Part shown: piece by piece, positions 131-45,124 of the stretch | How the letters are laid out: every line of letters begins with the position of its first letter | Numbering within the stretch: position 1 is the first letter of the stretch | From: Fibrobacterota bacterium | GTDB taxonomy: Bacteria > Fibrobacterota > Fibrobacteria > UBA11236 | Direction of reading: 5' to 3' | DNA length: 64,000 nt | Assembly (NCBI GenBank): GCA_947466585.1 | Contig: CANIEU010000001.1 | Location: forward strand, 236,414-300,413 | Notes under the pieces: model-generated | What the model was told of the DNA's origin: nothing | The model's input: the letters and a program-made list of their open reading frames with translations, nothing else | The model's database searches: none | Translations under genes and position numbers: made by a program

Positions 131-229
131 GACGGTAGTAGGTAGGGAATACACGGACGACCCAAACCTCTCTACCCGCACTCTGAAAAGCATTTTTTGA
201 CTCTTTTCTACCGTCTACCTACTACCGTC
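131..229. repeat. Intergenic inverted repeat with heptamer-repeat arms (element A)
   Basis: GACGGTAGTAGGTAG (131-145) is the exact reverse complement of CTACCTACTACCGTC (215-229). The right arm is CTACCGT-CTACCTA-CTACCGT heptamers. Confidence 0.85.
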
Positions 230-3546: not shown

Positions 3547-6500
3547 ATGACGGATACTCCGAAAAAACGCGTTTCTACGCTGGCCAAAGATCATGATCTG
3601 ACCAGCGAAGTCCTTTTGCGCCTCCTCCATGAGGCCGGCGTCGATGCCAAGACGCCCTCAAGCACCCTCGAGCCCGAGGCCTTCCAAAAGGTCAAGCCTC
3701 TGCTAATGGCCGAAAAACAGCGCAAAGAGCGCGAAGAGCTGGTCAAGGCCGGCAAAAAGATCCCGATGAAGGCGGTCATCCGCAAGGCGCCGATCCCACC
3801 GGCTCCCGTCGCCGTGATCAAAAAAGCGACGCTGATCAAGCCCGAGTCACCCGCCGCCGCGCCTGTCCAGCCTGTGGCGCCGACTTCACCGACCGTGGGT
3901 CCCCGTGTCGTGGTGGCACCTTCCGCACCGGTGGCTGCACCCGCGCCCACTGCGGCGCCCGCACCTGTCGTGGAAGCCCCCGCCGCACGCGCAGAAACGG
4001 CAGCTCCGTCAGCAGCGCCGGTTGTTGAATCCGCTCCGGCCCCGCGCGCTGAAGCTCCCGTGGCGCCTGCCGCCAAGGCAGCTCCGGCATCAGCCCCTGT
4101 AACCAAGACCGCACCCACGCCCCCTCAGGGCAACGAGCCTCCGCAGGCACCCGTCGCACAAGAGCCGACCAAACCGGGTCCGACCAAACCGGCCGAACCC
4201 GTTTCGACCCTCAAGGTTTCCATCGAAAAGCCCGATTCGGCCATGCTGGCTCGTATCGCGAAGTCGCGTGCCGAAAGCGCCGCCCGCATGCGCGGAAACG
4301 GCGATCGCGGCGGTCAAGGCTACTCCGGCCATCTCTCGCGCGGCCCCGGCGGCCCCAGCCGCGAAGGCGGCCTCGGCCGCACCGGCGGACACCTCGGCCC
4401 CAGTCGTGGACCCGGGGGTCCCGGAGGCCCGGGTGGTCCTAATCGCGGTCCTGCAGGTGCTCCGCGCACCGGCGGCTTCGACGGCCCCAAAGACATTTAC
4501 GCATTGCGTGCTCAGTCCGCCGGTGTAACCGGTGGCGGAGCGCCCGGACGCGGCCCAGGTGATCGCGATCGTCGTGACGGCCCCGGCACGGGTGGAGCAC
4601 CGGGCGGAGCACCGGGCGGACCAGGTCGTTCCGGACCAGGCGGTCCTCCGGCTCGCGGTGGACGCGGCAAGCGCAAGACGCGCGAGCAGATCGAACAGGA
4701 ATTGCTGAGCGCACGCAACAACGTGAGCAAGGTCATGGCCAGCCTTTCGCGCACGCCCGGCAAGGCGCGCCTGAAGGATCGCAAAGACGAAGAGGGCGCC
4801 GAGGGCGATCAAGCCAAGCGCGTGCTCAATGTTTCCGAATTCGTGACGATGGGTGAACTCGCCGGTCTCATGAACGTGCTGCCAGCACAGGTCATCGCCA
4901 AGTGCATGGAGCTGGGCATGATGGTGACCATCAACCAGCGCCTCGACCACGAAATCATCGCGCTCGTCGCCGATGAATTCGGTTACTCCGCCCAGCTCAT
5001 GGACGAATACACCCAGGAAGCTGCGGCTGAAGAAGGTGAAGAAGACGCTGCGGGCGAACTCGTGACGCGCGCCCCCATCATCACCGTCATGGGTCACGTC
5101 GATCACGGTAAGACCTCGATCCTCGATCACATCCGCAAGACCAACGTCATCGCGGGCGAATCGGGCGGCATCACGCAACACATCGGCGCCTACATGGTCG
5201 ATACGGCCCACGGCCCGATTTGCTTCCTCGACACCCCGGGTCACGAGGCCTTCTCGGCCATGCGCGCCCGCGGCGCCAACGTCACCGACGTGGTGCTTCT
5301 GGTGGTGGCGGCCGACAGCATGGTCATGCCGCAGACCAAGGAAGCCATCCAGCTCGCCAAGAACGCCAACGTTCAAATCGTGGTGGCCATCAACAAAATT
5401 GATCTTCCCACTGCGAACCCGGACAAGATCCGCACGCAGTTGGCGGAAAACGGCGTCGAAGTCGAACAATGGGGCGGTAAAATCCCCTGCGTCGAAGTGT
5501 CGGCCCGTTCCGGTCTTAACATGGACAAGCTGCTCGAGACGCTCGCACTCGAGTCCGAAATCCTTGAACTCAAGGCGAACCCCGAGCGCAACGCCATGGG
5601 CGCTGTGATCGAATCGCGTCTCGACAAGGGCAAGGGCGCCGTGGCCACCATGCTGGTGCAGAACGGCACCCTGCGCGTGGGCGACGCCATCGTGACCGGT
5701 ACCTTCGCCGGCCGCGTCCGTTCGCTGCTCGACGAACGCGGCAATCCGCGCAAGGAAGCCGGTCCCTCGACTCCGGTCCAGGTGCTCGGTCTCGAAGGCA
5801 CGCCGCAGGCGGGTGACTCGTTCATGGTGGTGGAAGACGAGCGCGAGGCGCGCGAAATAGCGAACCGTCGCCGCGTCGCGGCCAAGGATCGCGAACTGCG
5901 CCAGAAGCGTCACATCACGCTCGATCAGCTCTCCGACCGTATCAAGTCGGGCGAGTTCCACGAGCTCAAGCTCCTCATCAAGGGCGATACCGACGGTTCG
6001 GTGGAAGCCATCGCCGCCTCGCTCGAAAAACTTTCGACCAAGGAAGTGCGCGTCAAGGTCATCAGCAAGGGCGTCGGCGCCGTTCGCGAAGCCGATATCC
6101 AGATGGCCGCCGCATCCGATGCTCTGATCATCGCCTTCCACGTGCTGCCTTCCGAGTCGGTGCGCGATCTGGCGGAGCAGGAAGGCGTCACCATCAACAG
6201 CTATCGCATCATCTACGAGATCGTGGACGAAGTGAAGTCGGCGATGGAAGGCCTCCTCAAGCCCGAGTACCGCGAAGAAGTCGCGGGCGAAGCGCTCATC
6301 CTCAAGCTGTTCCACATCCCCAAGGTCGGTGTCATCGCCGGTTGCAAGGTTCAGAGCGGCAGCGTGGAACGCGAGCTCAAGGCACGCCTGTACCGCGGCG
6401 GCATCGAAGTCGGCGAAGCCAAGGTCGTCTCGCTCAAGCGCGAGAAGGACGACGCGAAAACGGTCAAGGCCGGTTTCGAGTGCGGCATCGGCCTCGAAGG

Positions 6501-6600: not shown

Positions 6601-6981
6601 ATGACGCGCCGGACCGAGCGCGTTGGAAACGTCATCCAACGCGAACTCAGCCAATACATCCTCCGGGAGATCAACGATCCGCGGCTCGGCTTCCTCACGC
6701 TCTCGCGTGTGGAAACCACCCAGGATCTTGGTCTGGCCACGGTCTCCGTATCGGTGATGGGTGACGAAAAAGTGCGGCACGACACGCTCGAAGCGCTCAA
6801 CGAATTCGCGCCCCGGATGCGCACGCACCTCTCCAAATACCTGCAAACCCGCACAGTACCCAAGCTCAGCTTCACTCTCGATCGCAATCTCGATCACGGT
6901 TTCCGCATCGATTCGCTCTTGCGCGACATCGAACGCGGCGAAAACCCCGCGGCAAAAGACGACGAAGAAAATGAGCAATGA
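6601..6981 (+). CDS. rbfA: Ribosome-binding factor A
   Basis: 126 aa; RTERVGNVIQRELSQYILREINDPRLGFLTLSRVETTQDL. Confidence 0.93.
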   Translation: MTRRTERVGNVIQRELSQYILREINDPRLGFLTLSRVETTQDLGLATVSVSVMGDEKVRHDTLEALNEFAPRMRTHLSKYLQTRTVPKLSFTLDRNLDHGFRIDSLLRDIERGENPAAKDDEENEQ

Positions 6982-7100
6982 TGAATGAGAAATGAGAAAC
7001 GGGAATCAAAGCCTATAGGGTTGGTGACTTCCCGATTTGATTAAGGAATACGCTTTCTTTTTCTCTTCTTTTCTCATTTCTCATTCATCATTTCTCATTT
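6969..7100. repeat. Long inverted repeat with AATGAGA heptamer arms (element B)
   Basis: 31-nt arms 6969-6999 and 7070-7100 complementary with one mismatch; loop about 70 nt; overlaps the rbfA stop codon. Confidence 0.92.
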
Positions 7101-7107
7101 GAACCCA

Positions 7108-8064
7108 ATGGCCAGCGAAGCGCATTCCTCCTCCGGCATCCTCCTTCTCGACAAACCCGTCGGTGAGTCGTCGTTTGCCGCGTTGTATCCGGTAAAGCGT
7201 GCGTTCGGAGGCAAGAAGGGCGCGAAGATCGGGCATGCGGGCACGCTCGACCCCGCCGCTTCGGGGCTGCTGGTGGTGGGCGTGGGCGCGGGCACGCGTC
7301 TGCTCGAATTTCTCGAAGCCATGCCCAAGAGCTACCGCTTCCGTTTGCATTTGGGAATCGAAACCGACACCTACGATCTCGAAGGCGAAGTGCGGGCGCG
7401 CAAAGACGCCTCGCACGTCACGCTCGCACAACTCGAGGCCGCATTGCGCACCTTCCTCGGCCCCATCGCGCAAATGCCGCCTGCCTACTCCGCAATCAAG
7501 ATCGCAGGCAAGCGCGCCTGCGACCGCGTGCGCGACGGCGAAACCGTGACGCTCGCCGCACGCAACATCCGCATCGACCGCATCGAGGTGCTCTCGTTCG
7601 ACACCCATGATAGGACCGCCCTAGTGGAAATGGATTGTTCGAAAGGCACCTATGTGCGCAGCCTCGCGCACGACGTGGGTCAAATTCTCGGCTGCGGTGG
7701 CGCCGCAGATCAAATCCGTCGCCTCGCCATCGGCCCCTTCCGCGTCGAAGACGCCATCGCGCCCGATAACGCAGGCCTGGATACCTTGCTCCCTCTCGAG
7801 GCCGCCATCGCCGATCTGCCCGTATTGCGGGTCTTGGATGCGGGGCTCGCGGGCCTGCGCAACGGCAATCCGCTGCCGGCGAACGTATTCAACGTCGAGA
7901 AAGCGCCGGTTGCACAGGTTGTCCCGGAGGAAACCGAACCGGAGTACGCGGTGTTTTCGGAGAACGGCATCTTGCTCTGCACCGCCACCCTGGATGCGAT
8001 CGGACGCCTTTGTCCGCGCAAGGTTTTTCCGGCTTCGCTGGATTCAGGCACCGCATCCCGCTGA
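7108..8064 (+). CDS. truB: tRNA pseudouridine(55) synthase TruB
   Basis: SGILLLDKPVGESSF...KIGHAGTLDPAASGLLVVGVGAGTRLLEF. Confidence 0.95.
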   Translation: MASEAHSSSGILLLDKPVGESSFAALYPVKRAFGGKKGAKIGHAGTLDPAASGLLVVGVGAGTRLLEFLEAMPKSYRFRLHLGIETDTYDLEGEVRARKDASHVTLAQLEAALRTFLGPIAQMPPAYSAIKIAGKRACDRVRDGETVTLAARNIRIDRIEVLSFDTHDRTALVEMDCSKGTYVRSLAHDVGQILGCGGAADQIRRLAIGPFRVEDAIAPDNAGLDTLLPLEAAIADLPVLRVLDAGLAGLRNGNPLPANVFNVEKAPVAQVVPEETEPEYAVFSENGILLCTATLDAIGRLCPRKVFPASLDSGTASR

Positions 8065-9158: not shown

Positions 9159-9238
9159 TTCGTACTCCTACGCGTACTTCGTACTCGGCGTTTTTCGAAT
9201 AATTTCGAGTACGTGTAGGAGTACGAGGCACGAGTACG
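9159..9238. repeat. Intergenic inverted repeat with CGTACTC-type repeats in both arms (element E)
   Basis: TCGTACTCCTACGCGTAC (9160-9177) pairs with GTACGTGTAGGAGTACGA (9208-9225), 17/18 plus a GU. Confidence 0.8.
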
Positions 9239-28423: not shown

Positions 28424-28542
28424 TGAATGAGAAATGAGAAATGAGAAATGAGAACTACCTTCGAAATCAATTTTTCGGGCGCACGAAATGCTTTAAAGGA
28501 CTTGCCTTTTTTCTCATTCTTCATTTCTCATTTCTCATTTTC
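28424..28542. repeat. Long inverted repeat with AATGAGA heptamer arms (element C)
   Basis: (AATGAGA)4 at about 28425-28453 vs TTCTCATTCTTCATTTCTCATTTCTCATT at about 28511-28539; about 27/29 complementary. Confidence 0.9.
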
Positions 28543-29441: not shown

Positions 29442-29641
29442 GGGGCAAAGGTAGATGGGGACAGTCGGTAGTCGGTAGTGGGCCGGGAACAAAAGCCGGT
29501 TTTTCGGGCTTTCTGCCTGAGATCGACCTTGAAACGCCGGAATACCCGGAACATCTATGCCTTCACCGCCGCCTTTCAACATCCGACCATCGAAGGCCTA
29601 ACCCTTGAATTTGACGCAACGAATGTTTATACTTAAACCTT

Positions 29642-45038: not shown

Positions 45039-45054
45039 GACATGGATCAACACA

Positions 45055-45124
45055 GCATCACAACAGCACAACAATAAACGCAAGCAGTCCGTTACTGCCT
45101 TTTATTGTTGTGTTGCTGTGTTGT
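45055..45124. repeat. Inverted repeat with octamer-repeat arms (element D)
   Basis: CACAACAATAAA (45067-45078) vs TTTATTGTTGTG (45101-45112), exact; pairing continues outward to about 24 bp with two mismatches and GU pairs. Confidence 0.85.

Follow-up and report, generated by a model that had tools for sequence, protein, structure and literature searches.

The closest published case to the element examined here is that of the GGGAATC heptamers of Xanthomonas (Rehm et al., 2015; PMC4692102). These repeats are mostly intergenic, lie 0–50 bp from gene edges, point inward, are rarer in divergent gaps and form 70–75 inverted pairs per genome; most repeats lie between genes that are the same in the two species. 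Rehm et al. favoured quadruplexes and found no link to mobile elements (PMC4692102). REPs occupy co-directional or convergent gaps close to 3' ends and sometimes supply the stop codon (Di Nocera et al., 2013; PMC3733652). The TAACTGA repeats of Beggiatoaceae form 169 direct sets and one indirect set in a Beggiatoa genome (MacGregor, 2015; PMC4679880). More generally, heptamer arrays are reported to be more common than any other long simple repeat in most of the bacteria studied, with an origin put to polymerase slippage. An earlier, sequence-only reading of the DNA above took the direct heptamer repeats of cyanobacteria as its precedent; given the inverted pairs described in Xanthomonas in 2015 (PMC4692102), these are not the sole one. 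Our literature search found no paper on inverted heptamer elements in Fibrobacterota.

Element B and similar elements in the window

The window is the whole 64,000-nt stretch that was analysed (G000:C1:236414-300413) from a genome, G000, of 2.24 Mb in 28 contigs. In the gap between rbfA and truB the sequence-only reading had described an inverted repeat, element B, with 31-nt arms built on AATGAGA, one mismatch between them and a spacing of about 70 nt. Coordinates, complementarity (97%) and the period of 7, found in the left as well as the right arm, were all confirmed, as was the placement of the element between the genes: the rbfA stop codon (TGA, 6979–6981) lies inside the left arm, and the right arm stops 7 nt short of the truB ATG at 7108. 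The predicted RNA fold of element B (–58.6 kcal/mol) has z = –8.4, which puts it far beyond chance. A search of the whole G000 genome for a second copy of the loop found none.

Table 1. Elements, arrays and adjoining genes in the window (positions in nt).
Feature	Position	Strand	Details
rbfA, gene upstream of element B	6601–6981	+	Pfam RBFA, PF02033
Element B, left arm AAATGAGCAATGATGAATGAGAAATGAGAAA	6969–6999	+	heptamer AATGAGA/AATGATG; contains the rbfA stop codon
Element B, loop	7000–7069		70 nt; unrelated to other loops
Element B, right arm TTTCTCATTTCTCATTCATCATTTCTCATTT	7070–7100	+	7 nt between arm end and truB ATG
truB, gene downstream of element B	7108–8064	+	Pfam TruB, PF01509
Second element, unit GGTAGNN	131–229		arms 131–145 / 215–229, 69-nt loop; divergent gap upstream of a mazG-like gene
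Third element, unit AATGAGA	28426–28540		arms 28426–28454 / 28511–28539, 56-nt loop
Fourth element, 8-mer unit (CAACACAG/CATCACAA)	45048–45123		arms 45048–45065 / 45106–45123, 40-nt loop; after the CTP synthase gene
Unpaired heptamer array AGTCGGTAGTCGGTAGTGG	29463–29481	+	divergent gap upstream of ftsX

Four further gaps had been said to hold elements of this design, all of them co-directional. Three such elements are present (131–229, 28426–28540 and the CAACACAG-like one at 45048–45123) and no candidate for the fourth qualified; the gap at 131–229 is divergent (– then +), so co-directionality does not extend to all of them. The genes around the element at 28426–28540, ftsX and, downstream of it, one for an M23 peptidase, are on the – strand. 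A solitary arm that had been assigned to ftsX is probably the array at 29463–29481. The elements fold strongly as RNA (z –3.4 to –8.4), the genes that flank those in the window are ordinary housekeeping genes, and an Rfam search of the window at the gathering score gave no family match. Separately, a 19-nt inverted repeat without heptamer period (TCGTACTCCTACGCGTACT / AGTACGTGTAGGAGTACGA) occurs at 9160–9226, between a riboflavin kinase/FAD synthetase gene and the next called gene.

Density, period and units across the genome

The census of G000 covered C1 completely and 120 kb of C2 (485 kb), together with selected stretches; the gap census, on C1 and the 120 kb of C2, comprised 259 gene gaps, or 67.6 kb including 45-nt margins. 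These gaps contained 30 inverted repeats with a score of at least 13, where dinucleotide shuffles predicted 0.4, and 387 kb of coding DNA contained seven. Of the 30, 20 had arms of period 7 and two had arms of period 8; at a score of at least 18, period 7 was found in 11 of 12 gap repeats and the shuffles gave none. The sequence-only reading had named a density no higher than in shuffled sequence, or arms not enriched in period 7 or 8, as results that would speak against it; neither was observed. Element B is thus supported as a member of a genome-wide class of intergenic inverted repeats built from tandem repeats.

At least seven different units make up the arms in G000 (AATGAGA, GGTAGNN, AAATNNG, AGTGNNT, CAGCNNA, AATGAAC/AATGCGC, GTCGGAA and one 8-mer), and within each family a core of 4–5 nt is fixed and 2–3 nt vary. 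Across the whole genome AATGAGAAATGAGAA occurs in 62 places with at most one mismatch and its reversed control in none; the GGTAGNN family gives 129 matches (control 0), with pairs of one polarity. AATGAGA arrays occur at 18 loci. By the 15-mer core alone 13 of these count as paired, and every pair has AATGAGA as its left and TCTCATT as its right arm. The loops of the AATGAGA elements are unrelated to one another, and no loop in G000 proved to be a copy of another loop or of a segment of the genome. Arms of the same AATGAGA element matched each other no better than arms of different elements (25.6 versus 25.25, p = 0.33), so covariation between them is not apparent.

Position relative to genes

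The elements fit their gaps from edge to edge. The part of the gap outside the element has a median of 14 nt, with edge distances that may be off by a few codons because gene calls were simple and hexamer-based, and it is 30 nt or less in 19 of 27 cases. Random insertion into intergenic bases predicts 2.5% of cases at this size (p about 1e-24) and a per-junction null predicts 39% (p about 9e-4). The 27 elements occupy 21 co-directional, five convergent and one divergent gap, compared with 300, 60 and 59, respectively, among all 419 gaps. Loop polarity relative to transcription gave a weak signal (p = 0.012). In G000 the arms read inward close 2.3 of three frames with stop codons, versus 1.72 in shuffles, and 0.37 read outward. 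Arms in G003, a species of the same genus, have no such excess (0.81 versus 0.75), which led us to reject the idea that arms are generally designed to carry stop codons.

Orthologous junctions in congeners

We compared orthologous gaps in three congeners, as the sequence-only reading had proposed, and found presence and absence in unit lengths. In 223 kb of G003 there are 17 inverted repeats of period 7, with units that include GTTGTTG, CAGCTTA, GACTTAG and AATGATG among others. None were found in 340 kb of G001 or in the small sample of 78 kb of G002. The rbfA–truB gap measures 126 nt with element B in G000, 58 nt in G001 and –4 nt (a 4-nt overlap) in G002; in G003 it measures 129 nt and holds a GACTTAG/GGCTTAG element with an unrelated loop. 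At another orthologous junction the arms are AATGAAC/AATGCGC in G000 and GTTGTTG in G003, which indicates that one junction accepts different units across species. Further gaps measure 143/–4, 133/29, 142/27 and 150/72 nt in G000/G001, and the first three differences equal whole element lengths, which argues that elements come or go as units. The tight junctions of the relatives are without the loop as well as without the arms. Because relatives gain, lose and swap elements at the same junctions, the elements behave like tiny dispersing elements. As a separate observation, the G003 element in a convergent gap (260601 in G000) and a copy at L327 in the more distant genome G028 have loops that resemble intrinsic terminators (AAAAAAGCCGGCGTTAACCGGCTTT) within their heptamer arms.

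Recent dispersal in a cousin

A large set of relatives, including G028, we take to be Fibrobacter (phylum Fibrobacterota). In G028 an AACTTAG element is present at the infB–rbfA junction; in G021, G036 and G032, whose flanks are 97–99% identical to those of G028, this junction is a bare TAATG stop/start overlap. Matches to the AACTTAG element occur at dozens of places in G028 and few in G021. Two near-precise insertions in G028 are a unit of ~132 nt between convergent genes whose stops overlap (TTATTAGC), where the neighbouring gene now terminates at a stop inside the insert, and one of ~117 nt at a second TAATG junction. At least three junctions occupied in G028 are empty in sister species. 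The elements of G028 have thus dispersed recently, by almost precise insertion at junctions. At three occupied/empty pairs no target-site duplication was visible and the edges show small local changes. The parA–parB junction holds different heptamer elements in different species.

Array length also varies: the left array has 1–17 units among 19 G028 copies. Loops of 11 of these 19 are related (22 of 171 pairs, versus 0.2 in shuffles) and the remainder differ. For 17 copies an upstream gene was called, and in 16 of them the array starts 0–8 nt past the stop codon of that gene. About seven of the 16 are convergent and therefore uninformative on orientation; the at least six that are clearly co-directional all have the array next to the 3' end of the gene upstream. 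A small hairpin, GCGNCGAAGNCGC, stands at the right end of about half of the G028 copies, and in two pairs of copies its pairing is kept through two-sided changes, which is suggestive only because the copies were chosen for displaying the hairpin. A second dispersed hairpin type (GTCATCCTGAGCGAAG...GGAATGACG) was seen at L329 of G028 and in gaps of G021 and G032, with one such unit lying inside an AACTTAG element, within its loop.

Occurrence across phyla

The exact 22-mer AATGAGAAATGAGAAATGAGAA was found in at least 120 stretches in species-representative genomes, with hosts among the matches listed that include Prevotella and other Bacteroidota, Clostridia, Planctomycetes, Sulfurovum, Chloroflexi, Pyrinomonadaceae, Nodularia, Desulfobacteraceae and others. 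Within Fibrobacterota the AATGAGA core occurs in five of 151 genomes. Of 139 array matches, 29 overlap an inverted repeat, and in most foreign genomes the unit occurs as single arrays. Polarity is fixed per genome: it agrees with that of G000 in five of five cases in a Prevotella genome (G155) and is reversed in three of three in a genome of Pyrinomonadaceae (G154). In 80 foreign loci, which were selected for array content and are no survey, period 7 was found in eight of the 15 other inverted repeats that are periodic. The reversed control pattern AAGAGTAAAGAGTAA gave 61 matches in one genome of the class, G138, where AAGAGTA is therefore another heptamer word. At 4600–4784 of L155 (Pyrinomonadaceae) a reversed-polarity element has extra, non-repetitive outer arms, GCAGGTCAGGAAGGGG, and the inverted duplication there extends beyond the arrays.

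Origin and role of the elements

We consider it somewhat more likely than not that these are non-autonomous hairpin elements inserted at gene junctions, with slippage-prone heptamer arms and a REP-like action on RNA. Such an element would measure about 60–180 bp, with a 7-nt unit repeated on the left, a loop, and the inverted counterpart of that array on the right. Fresh copies would enter as units at gene junctions, preferring tight ones that contain a stop codon; arrays would lengthen or shorten via slippage in 7-nt steps, the presumed cause of the length variation, and loops would be altered or replaced quickly while the arms persist. In the transcript a hairpin would adjoin the stop codon and precede the next start codon, where, by analogy with REPs and BIMEs, it may serve 3'-end protection, intercistronic processing, termination or control of reinitiation. 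We infer that the process at work in the Fibrobacter G028 also produced element B and that a mobilising activity lies behind the insertions. The idea of the sequence-only reading that the elements spread as miniature elements holds for G028, with its related loops and its junctions that are empty in sister species, and is not supported for AATGAGA in G000. There the loops are unrelated and that of element B is unique, and the arms are nevertheless near-perfect. A copied unit should carry its loop along, unless the copies are old and the arms maintained, so these loops count against mobility.

Growth in place, without mobility, would account for such loops: an old hairpin or terminator would have been extended outward in 7-nt slippage steps, with hairpin-templated copying keeping the arms complementary and the old local sequence remaining as the loop. 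The range of 1–17 units in G028 and the terminator-like loops in G003 and G028 fit this reading, as does the heptamer bias ascribed to polymerase slippage, at least as relayed in later papers (Mrazek et al., via PMC4679880 and PMC4692102). Because dispersal was seen only in the G028-type case and not for AATGAGA in G000, growth in place is a serious rival for G000. However, it leaves unexplained that a single unit recurs at 18 loci and a different one at loci next to them, that pairs are matched in unit and polarity and that unrelated G028 loci have related loops, and at the tight junctions of relatives the loop is absent too. It fails on shared units, fixed polarity and loop-free bare junctions, and we regard it as possible but rather unlikely. 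Selection of regulatory sites is less likely still and, in our judgement, improbable. In this case each heptamer would be the word that an RNA- or DNA-binding protein recognises, with paired arrays selected where a junction needs insulation or processing. Consistent placement at gene edges and stop codons, the strong RNA folds and the binding-site role proposed for TAACTGA arrays (PMC4679880) point this way. Against it, congeners are without all families (G001 and G002) or have other units at the same junction, the genes beside the elements of the window have ordinary housekeeping functions, and it is implausible that a 2.2-Mb genome has seven or more units each with its own regulon.

REP or REPIN elements moved by a RAYT (Y1) transposase would share the placement, in co-directional and convergent gaps by 3' ends and sometimes supplying the stop codon (PMC3733652), and one family in G000 contains GTAG. 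However, a profile search for the Y1 transposase (PF01797) found none in G000 (completeness 98%), G001–G003 or G028, while control genomes and 13 of 41 relatives were positive. As this search of the host yielded no Y1 transposase, the elements do not belong to the REPs that a RAYT mobilises. Their arms consist of heptamers in tandem, a GTAG or CGTC tag is missing from most families, and we consider this origin highly improbable. A profile search for reverse transcriptase (PF00078, RVT_1) likewise found none in G000–G003, and spread by reverse transcription was rejected for this reason. G-quadruplex or i-motif elements, as proposed for the heptamers of Xanthomonas and Nostoc, have the inverted, gene-edge heptamer design in common with ours (PMC4692102). 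The units AATGAGA, GGTAGNN, AAATATG, CAGCTTA and GTTGTTG contain no runs of three G, and for want of such tracts the quadruplex reading failed; we give it hardly any credence.

Taking junction insertion of hairpin elements as the preferred account, we also put forward, as a speculation that is more probably wrong than right by some distance, that a widespread and so far unrecognised bacterial process, independent of a Y1 transposase, inserts short heptamer-armed hairpin DNA at gene junctions and perhaps aims at stop/start overlaps. Several words of fixed polarity would be in use per genome, and words would be replaced between species while the architecture stays. If true, this process would explain why heptamer arrays have been reported here and there, in cyanobacteria, Beggiatoa and Xanthomonas. 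Insertion targeted to junctions, if it holds, would be a mechanism that separates overlapping operon genes and places a hairpin between them, and it could be tested in culturable Fibrobacter, where there are recent copies and known empty sites.

Comparison with known systems

Like the GGGAATC repeats of Xanthomonas, the elements of G000 are paired inverted heptamer arrays at the edges of intergenic gaps. Unlike Xanthomonas, which has one G-rich unit, G000 has many units without G-tracts, and its relatives differ in presence and absence and in the unit at a given junction. With REPs, BIMEs and REPINs the elements share their nature as dispersed inverted repeats in co-directional and convergent gaps near 3' ends, fit to form RNA hairpins. 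They differ from these in that the host is without a Y1 transposase and there is no general GTAG or CGTC tag, GTAG being found in one family. In addition, the arms are 7-nt tandem arrays, unlike the 20–40 bp palindromes of REPs and REPINs, and the loops reach about 140 nt and are unconserved in G000. TAACTGA repeats and the cyanobacterial heptanucleotide STRRs are likewise short intergenic 7-nt arrays by start codons, patchy across distant phyla, but they are direct repeats where those in G000 are inverted pairs. Like MITEs, the elements are short, non-coding and multi-copy, with inverted ends and unit-length presence and absence at orthologous sites. Unlike MITEs, they have no visible target-site duplication or detected parent transposon, and their ends are arrays of variable length. 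On shared internal sequence the picture is mixed: loops are related in 11 of 19 copies in G028 and unrelated in the AATGAGA family of G000. To the known cases our data add many G-poor units of one design in a single genome, units gained and differing at single orthologous junctions, and almost precise insertion at stop/start overlaps in one cousin. The heptamer arrays of Fibrobacterota are thus paired, at gene edges and inserted as units, a design that can be explained without quadruplexes.
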